NCBI GenBank assembly: GCA_037952775.1
Contig: JBANAY010000001.1
Span: forward strand, 3,286,001-3,350,000
DNA from: Clonostachys chloroleuca
Lineage: Eukaryota; Ascomycota; Sordariomycetes; Hypocreales; Bionectriaceae
Direction: 5' to 3'
Length of the DNA stretch: 64,000 bases
How positions within the stretch are numbered: the stretch's first letter is position 1; each line of letters opens with the position of its first letter. This document shows, one piece after another, positions 43,229 to 61,598 of the stretch. The notes under the pieces were generated by a model. It saw only the letters and a list, made by a program, of their open reading frames with translations. It searched no databases and had not been told where the DNA came from. The position numbers and the translations under genes are program-made.

Positions 43229-46226
43229 TCAGAAAACGCCTCGCCCCCCATTCTTTCGGAACGGTCCGGCACCACCGGAGGCTGGGCTCATGATTGAAGG
43301 AATGCCGTATTCCCCTTCAGCAGACGATTGGGAAGAGACAGACGAGAACGAGTTCAGCCCCGAGTGTCCCTTCCGCTGAGGCATTGTTGGTCGTGACATG
43401 GAAATGCCAGGATTGGCCATTAGAGTATCTGCTCGGTCAAAGACGTTTCCGTGGAATGCTGCCGCAAACGAGGTGTTCTGCGGCGTCTTTGGCATCGTGG
43501 CCTGCATTGCTGGTCCCAACGCTGCGCTCTGGGGGGTAATTGGAACCTGAATAGGTGACATCGGTTCCGACCCTCTGGAGAGTGTGTGCCCAGGGTGAGA
43601 GTGGTGGCCCCCGTTCACACTAGATGACTGCAGGAGGTGGTGCCAAGGAGAGTTAACAATAGTTCCAATCGTTTCCTTCATGCTCTGGTGAATAGGTCGC
43701 AACCGAACCCTCGTGTCATGCGGGAGCACAACTCCAGTCGGTGCCTGCTTGATTTCCCAGGCCAACTCTGTCCAAGACACAACGAAGCTACTGCATAAGC
43801 TCCAGAAACTGGACTGAGACCTGATCCCAGGTTCTTTCAACTTGATCAGAGACAAGCGGGTTCTCATCACCTCCGTTTGGCTGATGGTATTGTTGCACAT
43901 GGCAATAAGCCCCTTCCAATTTCTTATTAGCGGAGGTGCGGTACCCTTCTGCACCGCGTTTCTCAACCCCCCCATTAATTGAACATTAAAATTTGGTAAC
44001 GTTTGCAGCACAATATCCGAGGATCTTTGCAGAGATAGAAAGATTTTATCAAACTGCGCGTCCTCCTCTGTTGAGGCATCAGAGCCAAGGCTGCGACTGT
44101 TGATAGATGCAAACGACTCTCCGGATCGCGGAGTGGCAGACGCAATTGTGGCAGTGCGTGTCCCATTGCCATATGGTGAAGGCAGTGGGACATTTGTCGC
44201 GACCCTCAGGTTGGCTGCAGGATTAATTACTAAGGTTCCATTGCGGCCTCTCAAGGGTGCTGGTTTCAGAGCCTTTGAGGGAACAGAAGGTTCTCTCATG
44301 TGTGGCCGAATTGTTAATCCCCCATTCAACGGCTCCGTAGACGATGACCTTTGTTTACCGTCTTCGGCGCTGACAGAAGACATTGTAACCCGAAGCTCCA
44401 TTATGCTATTATAGATCAACATCAAAAGAGTCCGAATATATCGGGGGTCTCCATAGTCGACGAAAATATCAATATTGTCGGCAAGTAGAGTGCAAACGTG
44501 TCCATATGCGCTCACCAATGTCTGGCATGCCCGATGGACCGTTTCGTTTTCCCTCGTGAAATGCTCATCCTCGTCAACCAGCCACTGGTCATGTTTTTGA
44601 ATTGCTTGCTCCAGCTCTTCGACGTGCGAGTTCGTATTGTAGAATACAATTTCGAGGCTAGATCGCTTAGAGCCGTCGTCGGCCAGGCTCATTAGCGACT
44701 GTATTATTGGGTGAACCTGGAACACCGAGTAGAGAATGCCTTTTGCAATTTCGATGACTGGATCATACACCTTGGACTCCCGTCTGCGTTCAGGAAGAAT
44801 AGATAGCCGACGCACATATACCGGCCGCTGAGGATATGGATCAGTAGGGGTCCCAGGGTCCATAGCACCGTGCATGGCCGAACCATGGCTCAAGCCCCGA
44901 TAATGGCTGAATCGATTGCTCGCCTGGGTCTCGTCGAGTGTTACCAGATCCGTCGGTTTCTTAGAAACAACACCCATGCGCCGGTTTCGACTTTCGGATC
45001 GTTCCGAACGTAGATTAGTTTCAGAATTGCTGCGAACACGTTCACTCGCGGTTCCGAGGGTGAGGGGCATTACACCAGGTCGTCGTATGGCCGTGTTTTG
45101 CTGGGACAACCCACGGTAATGAGACCGTTGAGGGATAGGGGGGATGCGGCTGGTGCTTGGCGAGCGGCTGTCTGAGGGATCTGCGCCATTGACTTTGATG
45201 GGAAACCGACCGCTGACCCTTCGTTTGAGGGGAGCTCGAGGCGTTTCAGTACCCTCACTTGATTCATCTCCCGCTTGATCGTTCTCTAGTCGCCCGGTTA
45301 AGCTATATTGTTTCAACCATCGCTTCATTTGTGCGGTCACCGCAAGCTCCACATCGTTGTCCCGGATCGTGCCGTCTCCAACTGGGCTTGGGGCTTGGAG
45401 TAAAAGGGCATCCTTTGGAGGGAAAACCAGAGGGTTCCCTTCGAATTTGAGTGCTTGCAAGGACGTCATATCACCAATGCTCAGAGGAAGCTCCCTAATT
45501 CTATTTTTCCGAAGAGAGAGCATCTTTAAACTAGTAAGCTTGGCAATCTCTGGAGGCAAATATTGTATCTGGTTTCGACCAAGCTCAAGTACTTCCAAGG
45601 CTTTTAGGTCGCAGAGCTATCCACTAATGTTAGACGATGCGAGTTCAGCGTGCTTGAAAAGGATTCTTACCGTCATAGGGAATTCAGAAAGCTGGTTGGC
45701 CCTAAGGTTGAGGTATCGCAAAGATGTGCATTCGGAAAATCGAGCGGGCAGTGCCGTCAGTTGGTTGTGCGCCAGAATTAGTCTGGGCAATGCAGTCAGC
45801 AAACACTTCTGTGAAACGATTCCTCGAGAACGTTAGAATATACCTTGCCAAATCATTCTTCATGATATCTACCACCTCTTCCGGCAGCTTGTGGATATTC
45901 TTTCGGCTCAGATCGATGGTAACGCCAGGCTGCAGACTCGCGCTCACAGCACTAGCCTCGGCAACCTGGTTCTCGCTCTCGAGAGCTGTTCGCATAGCCT
46001 CGCGTGCGAGTGATAAGACGTGGGAGGAATTCATTCCATTCGCGACCGCCAAGTTCGAGCTCGAAGCAGATTTGCGCATGGTAGGAATAGGAGGATGTTG
46101 GGGCCCGTTGGAAGTAGCCGCGGAGTTCGGAATAGGTCGACGTCCTGATAGTGGATTTTCAGACAAGCTTCGCAAGACCGGCGCGGCAGGGGCGCCGTTG
46201 GCTCGATCAAGTCTTTCCACAGCCAT
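43229..46226 (-). CDS. SOG2: Sog2-type leucine-rich-repeat protein of the RAM/MOR pathway, 960 aa
   Basis: Sog2 is a scaffold of the RAM network around the NDR kinase Cbk1 (COT-1/Orb6), controlling polarised growth and septation. Exons: 46226-45844, 45782-45671, 45616-43229, in frame. The second exon starts with ACTAATTCTGG after a CCCAG acceptor, giving the uninterrupted repeat ARLILAHNQLTALP. Leucine-rich repeats cover residues ~105-235 (LDLSRKNIHKLPEEV, LRYLNLRANQLSEFP, LEVLELGRNQIQYLPPEI, MLSLRKNRIRELP). After a Ser/Arg-rich linker the SOG2 helical domain follows (YDPVIEIAKGILYSVFQVHP to roughly residue 860), and the end is Ser/Gly/Pro-rich. Size and domain order match filamentous-fungal Sog2. 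Adenylate-cyclase-type LRR proteins are excluded by the C-terminal domain. Confidence 0.92.
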
Positions 46227-60246: not shown

Positions 60247-60369
60247 AGCAATTTGGCGCAGTGGAAGCGCGGTACGTAACACATTGCCTACTCATTTCAG
60301 AACCCCACTAACATCTCATCAGCCGGGCTCATAACCCGGAGGTCCTACGATCGAAACGTAGAATTGCTA
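60247..60369 (+). tRNA. Initiator tRNA-Met (CAT), copy 1, interrupted at position 26/27
   Basis: Exons 60247-60271 and 60323-60369 join to 72 nt. The fold is complete: acceptor AGCAATT/AATTGCT, D stem GCGC/GCGC, anticodon stem CCGGG/CCCGG with loop CTCATAA, variable AGGTC, T stem CTACG/CGTAG with loop ATCGAAA, discriminator A. A1:U72 and the AUCGAAA T loop mark a eukaryotic initiator, as do the three G:C pairs next to the anticodon loop. A box TGGCGCAGTGG (60254-60264) and B box region (60341-60358) are intact. The anticodon is at 60330-60332. The insert lies between the D stem (after base 26) and the anticodon stem, not at the usual 37/38 site. Confidence 0.93.
60272..60322 (+). other. Spliceosomal-type intron inside tRNA-iMet copy 1
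   Basis: 51 nt starting GTACGT and ending ATCAG, with CACTAAC 11-12 bases before the acceptor. These three signals match the fungal pre-mRNA intron consensus and the size of other introns in this window. Removal restores a perfect cloverleaf. Confidence 0.85.
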
Positions 60370-60781
60370 GCAGTTCTTTTTTTTTAGTTGAATTCTCTCC
60401 TCGCACCTCGCAAGGCTGCGACCTCACTTTTTTCTTTCCCAGTGAGGGTTCAACTACCCATTTAGCAAGATCGTATAAATTTTTTCTTCTTTCTCTTGAA
60501 AAAAAAAAACAAAAAAAACATTTCCTTCCCTCTTGCAAAAGACCACTACCTTGTTCATTACCCTGCATTCAATTATTTGCGATTGTTCAATATGAAGTTC
60601 ATAGGATGCCCACAGCCTGGTCTCCATTGCATGAGATAACGCATGGCGTTTTAATTAACAGCCAACCAGACTGAGGTGACTAGTGCCATTGACGTACTCC
60701 ACATTAAGTAGGGCAAGCCCAGCCGGCTTCGCTCACAAGATACATGTATTTGAATAATGACCGTTGCTTATCAGCGAACAA
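60370..60781. other. Spacer between the two tRNA genes
   Basis: No further RNA gene or ORF. Similarity to the flanks of copy 2 is limited to a few bases just before the tRNA (AACAA) and the T-run after it. A second T/C-rich tract lies at 60477-60530. Confidence 0.5.
60377..60385 (+). terminator. Pol III T-run terminator, tRNA copy 1
   Basis: T9 starting seven bases after the discriminator base; a standard RNA polymerase III stop. Confidence 0.85.
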
Positions 60782-60906
60782 AGCAATTTGGCGCAGTGGA
60801 AGCGCGGTATGTGATATCGATGACTCACCCCAGTTGATCCCAAAACTAACATTCCTCAGCCGGGCTCATAACCCGGAGGTCCTACGATCGAAACGTAGAA
60901 TTGCTA
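60782..60906 (+). tRNA. Initiator tRNA-Met (CAT), copy 2, interrupted at position 26/27
   Basis: Exons 60782-60806 and 60860-60906 are identical to copy 1 over all 72 positions, including A and B boxes; anticodon at 60867-60869. The insert sits at the same place, between base 26 and the anticodon stem. Exon identity with a diverged insert argues that both genes are under selection and not dead copies. Confidence 0.93.
60807..60859 (+). other. Spliceosomal-type intron inside tRNA-iMet copy 2
   Basis: 53 nt starting GTATGT and ending CTCAG, with AACTAAC 10-11 bases before the acceptor. It aligns with the copy 1 insert in its 3' half (ACTCA, CAG, CCC, ACTAACAT, CAG) but differs elsewhere, so the intron predates the duplication. 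Confidence 0.85.
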
Positions 60907-61598
60907 GCTAATTCTTTTTTTTGCTTTTCGTTCGTTACCTCGGCCGTGTGTTTTTGGATCCTTGCTTGGTAATAGAAGTAAGCTTCTTTTTACTAACGAT
61001 ATTCTATCTGCGCATTTCAAGCATGATCTTAACTAGCCCTCACTACTAAAAAGTTACTACAGAATATTCACCCGTTAGCATTTGACTGGAAGCTACAAAT
61101 TAGCTGACTACCTACTTATATTGCGCAATAGTTGGTTGATGGATGTTCAACCAGTGATGCTACAGGGTAACTTGCAAGGTCTGCAAGGATTTCTGAATCC
61201 AAGTCTAAACTTTAACATCAATTCGCCAAGCTGTGACTGGTCTAGAAGTGCCCTACTTTGACTTTTCTTATACTCTATAAATAGAGGTATATCCCAGATT
61301 AGGCAATATATGATTGGGCTGATCATATATATATTTTTTAAACGTAATTGGCGGTCTATACCCAAACCTTCCACATCGGAAAAGGTTAACAATCAACACA
61401 TTCAGCCTGGGCACAGGCATCAACGTCTCAAAAACTCTAATGATATGGGCCAGCTGGTCAGAGAGGTATATAACTTGGCCATGGCCCCTAAGAGGGGAAG
61501 CTCATCATCCATCAACCACTGCCACTTCAAGCAACAACTGTAATAATAACAAAATGTCAGTATCTGGCGTAAATATCACTACTAGCTAGGGCCTGGTC
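60907..61598. other. AT-rich spacer after the tRNA genes
   Basis: No gene. It contains A/T runs and a TATAAATAG motif near 61275, without an ORF to go with it. Confidence 0.45.
60915..60922 (+). terminator. Pol III T-run terminator, tRNA copy 2
   Basis: T8 starting nine bases after the discriminator base. Confidence 0.85.

Follow-up and report, generated by a model that had tools for sequence, protein, structure and literature searches.

Candidate spliceosomal introns in initiator and tryptophan tRNA genes of Clonostachys chloroleuca

Two initiator tRNA (tRNA-iMet) genes in a 64,000-nucleotide stretch of the Clonostachys chloroleuca genome (hereafter the window) are each interrupted by a short insert whose ends resemble those of an mRNA intron, which raises the question of how such inserts leave the tRNA precursor. 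Like the canonical introns at position 37/38, they are intervening sequences in nuclear tRNA genes, but they lie at another position, have GT-AG ends and a branch-site word, and form no comparable bulge-helix-bulge. Passages of the literature assign nuclear tRNA introns to removal by the tRNA endonuclease (PMC4390854), and a passage of a 2026 paper has tRNA introns removed by the endonuclease with no use of the spliceosome (PMC13149111). From comparisons of DNA sequence, we consider it highly probable that the inserts described here are U2-type spliceosomal introns that occur naturally in nuclear tRNA genes, likely removed by the spliceosome from a predicted Pol III precursor.

Interrupted tRNA genes in the genome

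The original prediction placed inserts of 51 and 53 nt, each with a full set of splice signals, between tRNA positions 26 and 27 of the two window genes, and these coordinates and motifs were confirmed (Table 1). It also held that removing the inserts yields identical cloverleaves; the two spliced sequences are indeed the same 72 nt, and they equal a third, uninterrupted gene, iMet3. That gene came from a survey of the whole genome (59.4 Mb in four contigs), in which an exact anticodon-arm pattern and an exact D-arm pattern each occurred at five exact places, marking the same five iMet genes. BLAST with the mature iMet sequence returned these five loci and no further ones. Four of the five are interrupted at 26/27 and one is intact, which answers the question, raised with the prediction, of whether any uninterrupted copy exists. 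Among the four tRNA-Trp genes found by BLAST, one (Trp48) is interrupted and three are intact, so that the pattern is wider than first described, taking in two more iMet genes and a tRNA-Trp gene outside the window.

Table 1. Coordinates and parts of the iMet and tRNA-Trp loci. Positions of iMet1 and iMet2 are those of the window; the others are given as contig and position.
Feature	Coordinates	Strand	Description
iMet1 gene, whole	60247-60369	+	one 51-nt insert
iMet1 5′ exon	60247..60271	+	tRNA positions 1-26; D arm, Pol III A box; same in 5 of 5 iMet genes
iMet1 insert, 51 nt	60272..60322	+	GTACGT donor, CTAAC at 60308-60312, CAG acceptor; precisely missing from paralogue iMet3
iMet1 3′ exon	60323..60369	+	positions 27-73; CAT anticodon, T arm with A54, B box
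iMet1 T9 run	60377..60385	+	likely Pol III terminator
iMet2 gene, whole	60782-60906		one 53-nt insert
iMet2 5′ exon	60782..60806	+	
iMet2 insert, 53 nt	60807..60859	+	GTATGT donor, CTAAC at 60846-60850, CAG acceptor
iMet2 3′ exon	60860..60906	+	
iMet2 T8 run	60915..60922	+	likely Pol III terminator
iMet3 (L013)	C3:16104289-16104360		intact, no insert
iMet4 (L014)	C3:27681100		interrupted, 53 nt, GTATGT...TAG
iMet5 (L015)	C3:32717968		interrupted, 54 nt, GTAAGT...CAG
Trp48 (L048), tRNA-Trp(CCA)	C1:5791657-5791781		interrupted, 53-nt insert, site 26/27 as in iMet
Trp46, tRNA-Trp	C1:5790717-5790788		intact

All five iMet genes share one mature sequence of 72 nt, with the initiator features of a CAT anticodon, an A1-T72 pair, GGG/CCC in the anticodon stem, and A54 within a T loop reading ATCGAAA. 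The A1-T72 pair and the GGG/CCC anticodon stem are marks of initiator tRNA. A passage of PMC3978253 counts A54U55C56 among the marks of an initiator. In each interrupted iMet gene the insert separates exons of 25 and 47 nt, and without it iMet1, iMet2, iMet4 and iMet5 match the intact iMet3 exactly, just as Trp48 without its insert is Trp46 base for base. Because the spliced sequences match an uninterrupted paralogue, the ends of the inserts are known with an ambiguity of a single base, a G that can be assigned to either side.

Degenerate patterns that join a D arm to a donor, limited to D loops of 7 and 8 nt and to GTANGT at 26/27, matched perfectly in tRNA genes at the same five interrupted loci and nowhere else. 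The first pattern gave 19 matches against 35 in a reversed control; five were the known interrupted tRNAs, and the other 14 proved on viewing not to be tRNA. The second gave 14 matches (control, 17), comprising the same five without mismatch and nine with two mismatches, and the third gave three (control, 12), none of them free of mismatches. Three of the 12 mismatched matches (C3:26159670 and C3:27189293 with the second pattern, C4:5136781 with the third) are tRNA genes without such a donor. Further interrupted cases among the mismatched matches, nine of which were viewed as matches only, are unlikely, as match numbers did not exceed those of the controls. One match of the third pattern, TGGTTTAATGGCCAAGCTTGTAAGT, carries a single mismatch and lies at G000:C3:1536667-1536691 on the minus strand. 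A T-arm pattern run over the genome was rejected as noise (584 matches, 600 in the reversed control), and a pattern search of viral_contigs and genome_contigs gave no matches. The tRNA catalogue is a partial one, in which an Rfam tRNA search scored 63 of 1737 first-look candidates.

Annotation programs handle these genes poorly. Neither bacterial-mode ARAGORN nor Rfam at gathering score gave any match in the window. When introns were allowed, ARAGORN named no gene for iMet1 and misnamed the other interrupted genes, calling iMet2 a tRNA-Tyr, iMet4 and iMet5 (L014 and L015) tRNA-Val, and Trp48 a tRNA-Ile. At gathering score Rfam matched Trp48 as a tRNA across its insert (40.8 bits) and left L014 and L015 unmatched. 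Because a tRNA annotation program assigns the wrong amino acid, this type of gene may be hidden in other genomes.

Two other tRNA observations were made in passing. A tRNA-like sequence on the minus strand of C4 (L052, 1382-1526) carries in its anticodon arm an insert of unusual length and odd form, CTCCC...GGGAG spaced by roughly 80 nt. The largest contig contains a 15-kb stretch (G000:C3:9147943-9162838) in which tRNAs for Asn, Gly, Val, Ile and others are clustered; it may be mitochondrial, either as a large mtDNA copy in the nucleus or through a join made during assembly.

Splice signals and Pol III features of the interrupted genes

The five inserts are 51-54 nt long, and each lies between tRNA positions 26 and 27 after the same GCGCG. 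All of them combine a GTANGT donor, a CTAAC ending 9-10 nt before the insert end and a YAG acceptor; CTAAC ends 10 nt (iMet1) and 9 nt (iMet2) before the end, with its last A at 12 and 11 nt. As a chance control, both strands of 0.36 Mb of DNA, some of it redundant, were scanned after masking of these tRNAs. The scan gave 210 distinct GTANGT..YAG segments of 45-60 nt, only nine of which also had CTAAC ending 8-13 nt before the end, and two of these nine are coding-supported mRNA introns. Counting the strict motif GTRNGT..CTAAC..YAG (35-130 nt) across the window gave a result too weak to be used by itself: 11 segments, including the two tRNA inserts, against a shuffled mean of 5.5 and maximum of 10.

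We compared the inserts with ten coding-supported mRNA introns of the window, scored with a coding model whose training set was the ORFs of the window itself. These introns were preselected (a GTRNG donor, CTRAY and YAG were required) and are thus informative only for length, branch distance and the share of CTAAC. They range from 51 to 132 nt (median 69.5), which puts the tRNA inserts at the short end; CTAAC occurs in six and CTGAC in three, and the branch word lies 8-20 nt from the end. Compared with the 5′ end of U1, the donors of the five tRNA genes score 7-8 matches out of 12, and those of the ten mRNA introns 3-8 out of 12. The Trp48 insert has little pyrimidine after the branch word (0.14). 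Avoidance of TTTT was rejected as evidence: the run is missing from all six introns of Pol III-type genes considered (five in tRNAs and one in U6), yet 26% of shuffles also lack it. It is present in two of the ten mRNA introns.

Group I and group II introns have a catalytic core of a few hundred nucleotides. A self-splicing ribozyme intron does sit in an initiator tRNA gene of a bacterium, as the inserts do here, but at 51-54 nt these are too short to be one, and Rfam at gathering score matched nothing but tRNA in L048 and gave no match in L014, L015 or the window.

With their A and B boxes and downstream T runs, the interrupted tRNA genes are predicted to be transcribed by Pol III. The inserts widen the A-to-B box distance to 95-98 nt in the five interrupted genes, compared with 44 nt in the three intact genes measured. 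Each of the five iMet genes is followed, at a distance of 7-13 nt, by a run of at least seven T; the terminator candidate of Trp48 is weak and distant (T5 at +31).

Origin, upkeep and removal of the inserts

Exons and inserts differ sharply in how well they are kept. In five of the six iMet pairs the insert interiors score close to shuffled sequence (0.50-0.58, shuffled 0.49-0.51), and the remaining pair, iMet2-iMet5, reaches 0.67 against 0.49. Across the ten interior pairs that the five inserts form, iMet2-iMet5 lies above all 300 shuffles, and weaker likeness is seen for iMet2-Trp48 (p 0.007) and iMet1-Trp48 (p 0.017), with p-values uncorrected for ten pairs. Flanks compared among eight genes exceeded all 100 shuffles in 3 of 56 comparisons. 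Because the iMet exons are 100% identical while the insert interiors are mostly near the shuffled level, the comparison points to selection for the spliced product. Alternatively, identical exons could be kept by gene conversion among the copies, without expression of every copy.

Another explanation for the divergent interiors is that the inserts are of independent origin, as chance landings of mRNA introns or recent introner insertions, and do not form one family. Most interior pairs are no more alike than shuffled sequence, as such an origin would have it; all five inserts, however, occupy the same site after the same GCGCG, the iMet2-iMet5 interiors exceed every shuffle, and the two pairs with Trp48 show their weaker likeness. 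The block just before CTAAC, which reads GAWCCC in four inserts and GAATTT in one, hints at common descent, being significant over 14 nt (p 0.005) and 16 nt (p 0.004) but not over 20 nt (p 0.28) or 24 nt (p 0.16). Taken together, these features make separate origins unlikely.

The intact gene is itself informative about this descent. A trailer word, TCTGGCTTTC, followed by a T run is common to iMet3 (L013, 1546-1570) and iMet4 (L014, 1546-1570), so that the intact gene is close kin of an interrupted one: either iMet3 has lost the intron or iMet4 has gained it, in both cases exactly. If the loss went by way of a copied spliced RNA, it would itself be a trace of splicing. A compensatory change in the acceptor stem, relative to L047, was considered as special to Trp48 and rejected, since the intact Trp46 has the same pair.

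The intact genes also bear on whether the interrupted copies work. As their mature sequences are identical to those of the interrupted genes, the one intact iMet gene and the three intact Trp genes could be the source of all mature tRNA, and the interrupted copies would then be dead or unspliced. Yet each of the four interrupted iMet copies has zero changes in 72 positions while its intron keeps little beyond the splice signals, decay would not preserve donor, branch word and acceptor together, and the downstream T runs are kept after all five iMet genes. We therefore regard dead copies as improbable, and favor interrupted genes that are maintained for their spliced product.

Removal by the tRNA endonuclease was examined through the bulge-helix-bulge, scored as at least three of four central-helix pairs plus at least four of five exon-stem pairs in either register. 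None of the five inserts combines the central helix with the exon stem in this form, though relaxed forms may occur, whereas two of three control 37/38 introns of the same genome do (elongator-Met and Val, each with three of four central pairs and the anticodon stem). The test is moderately strong only, as the Leu control has the stem and none of the four central pairs, and no control has all four; iMet4 also reaches three of four central pairs, like the two good controls, but without an exon stem. The site of the inserts, fixed at 26/27 by the intact paralogues, is not position 37/38. The parts that the inserts conserve are GTANGT, CTAAC and YAG, none of which the tRNA endonuclease is known to read. 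The elongator-Met, Val and Leu genes carry ordinary 37/38 introns, so that two intron types stand side by side in one genome. Thus, although tRNA introns at unusual positions elsewhere are described as endonuclease substrates in passages of PMC3978253 and PMC4390854, it is very improbable that the inserts are ectopic endonuclease introns, cleaved at a bulge-helix-bulge in the way of those archaeal and red algal introns that lie outside 37/38.

The spliceosomal reading advanced in the original prediction was accordingly strengthened in its descriptive part, by the mRNA-type signals, the non-canonical site and the lack of an endonuclease motif such as two of three ordinary introns have, and removal by the spliceosome itself keeps the standing of a deduction from sequence.

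A proposed spliceosomal route and its precedents

In the route that we propose, Pol III would transcribe through the insert to give an interrupted precursor, U1 and U2 would recognise the insert, and the spliceosome would remove it as a lariat at GT/AG before tRNA charging becomes possible. Joining of the 25-nt and 47-nt exons would then allow the cloverleaf core to close and yield a usable standard initiator or tryptophan tRNA. The original prediction went further and linked the supply of start tRNA to mRNA splicing, a claim that gains from the interruption of four of the five iMet genes and is limited by the fifth: because the intact iMet3 has the same mature sequence, the dependence of start tRNA on splicing may be partial and cannot be called obligatory. 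Dependence on the spliceosome would extend to up to four of the five iMet gene copies, and not necessarily to all iMet. A broader scenario, which we put forward tentatively and regard as rather doubtful, is that spliceosomal introns settled at 26/27 of the iMet genes and moved into tRNA-Trp by reverse splicing, that most start-tRNA genes thereby became spliceosome-dependent with translation initiation tied to spliceosome capacity, and that these introns form a third class of nuclear tRNA intron.

Several known systems resemble parts of this arrangement. Koehrer, Vogel and Domdey reportedly found (EMBO J, 1990) that an engineered yeast Pol III tRNA precursor with an mRNA intron was spliced by the pre-mRNA pathway; their construct was artificial, whereas the arrangement here is natural and kept in several copies. 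Bhattacharya is said to have described, in 2000, spliceosomal introns in ascomycete rDNA, likewise a gene for non-coding RNA that depends on a polymerase other than Pol II, although the host there is rRNA (Pol I) and here tRNA (Pol III). Closest are the introns of fungal U6 snRNA, in S. pombe and others, which are also short U2-type introns in a Pol III-made non-coding RNA; unlike them, the inserts described here have a tRNA as host, lie between the D and anticodon arms, and occur in several copies and two tRNA species. Splicing of the S. pombe U6 precursor is said to have been found impaired in pre-mRNA splicing mutants by Potashkin and Frendewey in 1989. That S. pombe U6 has an mRNA-type intron is stated in a passage of PMC10484740. 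The intron of this Pol III-made snRNA is a natural precedent for the precursor route proposed above. In the full-text literature, of which few subscription papers and no bioRxiv preprints were covered so that absence is not proof of novelty, we found no report of spliceosomal introns in natural nuclear tRNA genes.

If the proposed route is correct, these genes would be a natural case, outside the laboratory, of the spliceosome acting on Pol III tRNA precursors, and in four of five start-tRNA genes. It would also open a direct route from splicing defects to limited translation initiation, and the inserts would offer natural markers with which to follow how introns are gained and lost, and perhaps reverse splicing.

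The C. chloroleuca genome appears to have a U6 gene of the same kind. The gene in L072 (about 1445-1603; around C3:17164700-17164860), with exons placed by eye, reads as having a 61-nt mRNA-type intron in the ACAGAGA box (GTAAGT...GCTAAC...TTTAG), and an mRNA-type intron thus occurs in another Pol III-type gene of the same genome. This U6 intron contains a B-box-like GGTCCGACGTTCGATTC. A second U6-like gene, in L071 (1501-1602; C4:11232135-11232236), is intronless, with an Rfam U6 score of 79.6 bits.

Four U1-like genes were found, with matches below the Rfam cut-off (46.7-57.6 against 69.5 bits), and three of them have a 5′ end complementary to GTAAGT. The U1-like gene in L095 (C4:9622347) begins with ACACTTACCC and the other three with ATACTTACCT. 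A SOG2 ORF of the window (43229-45598) places the genome, by this one protein, close to Clonostachys rosea: its identity to a protein of strain IK726 is 99% in the protein search, and tblastn gives 97% for residues 126-960; the next named match by score is from Fusarium decemcellulare (66%), and Amphichorda felina matches at 73% over half the query.
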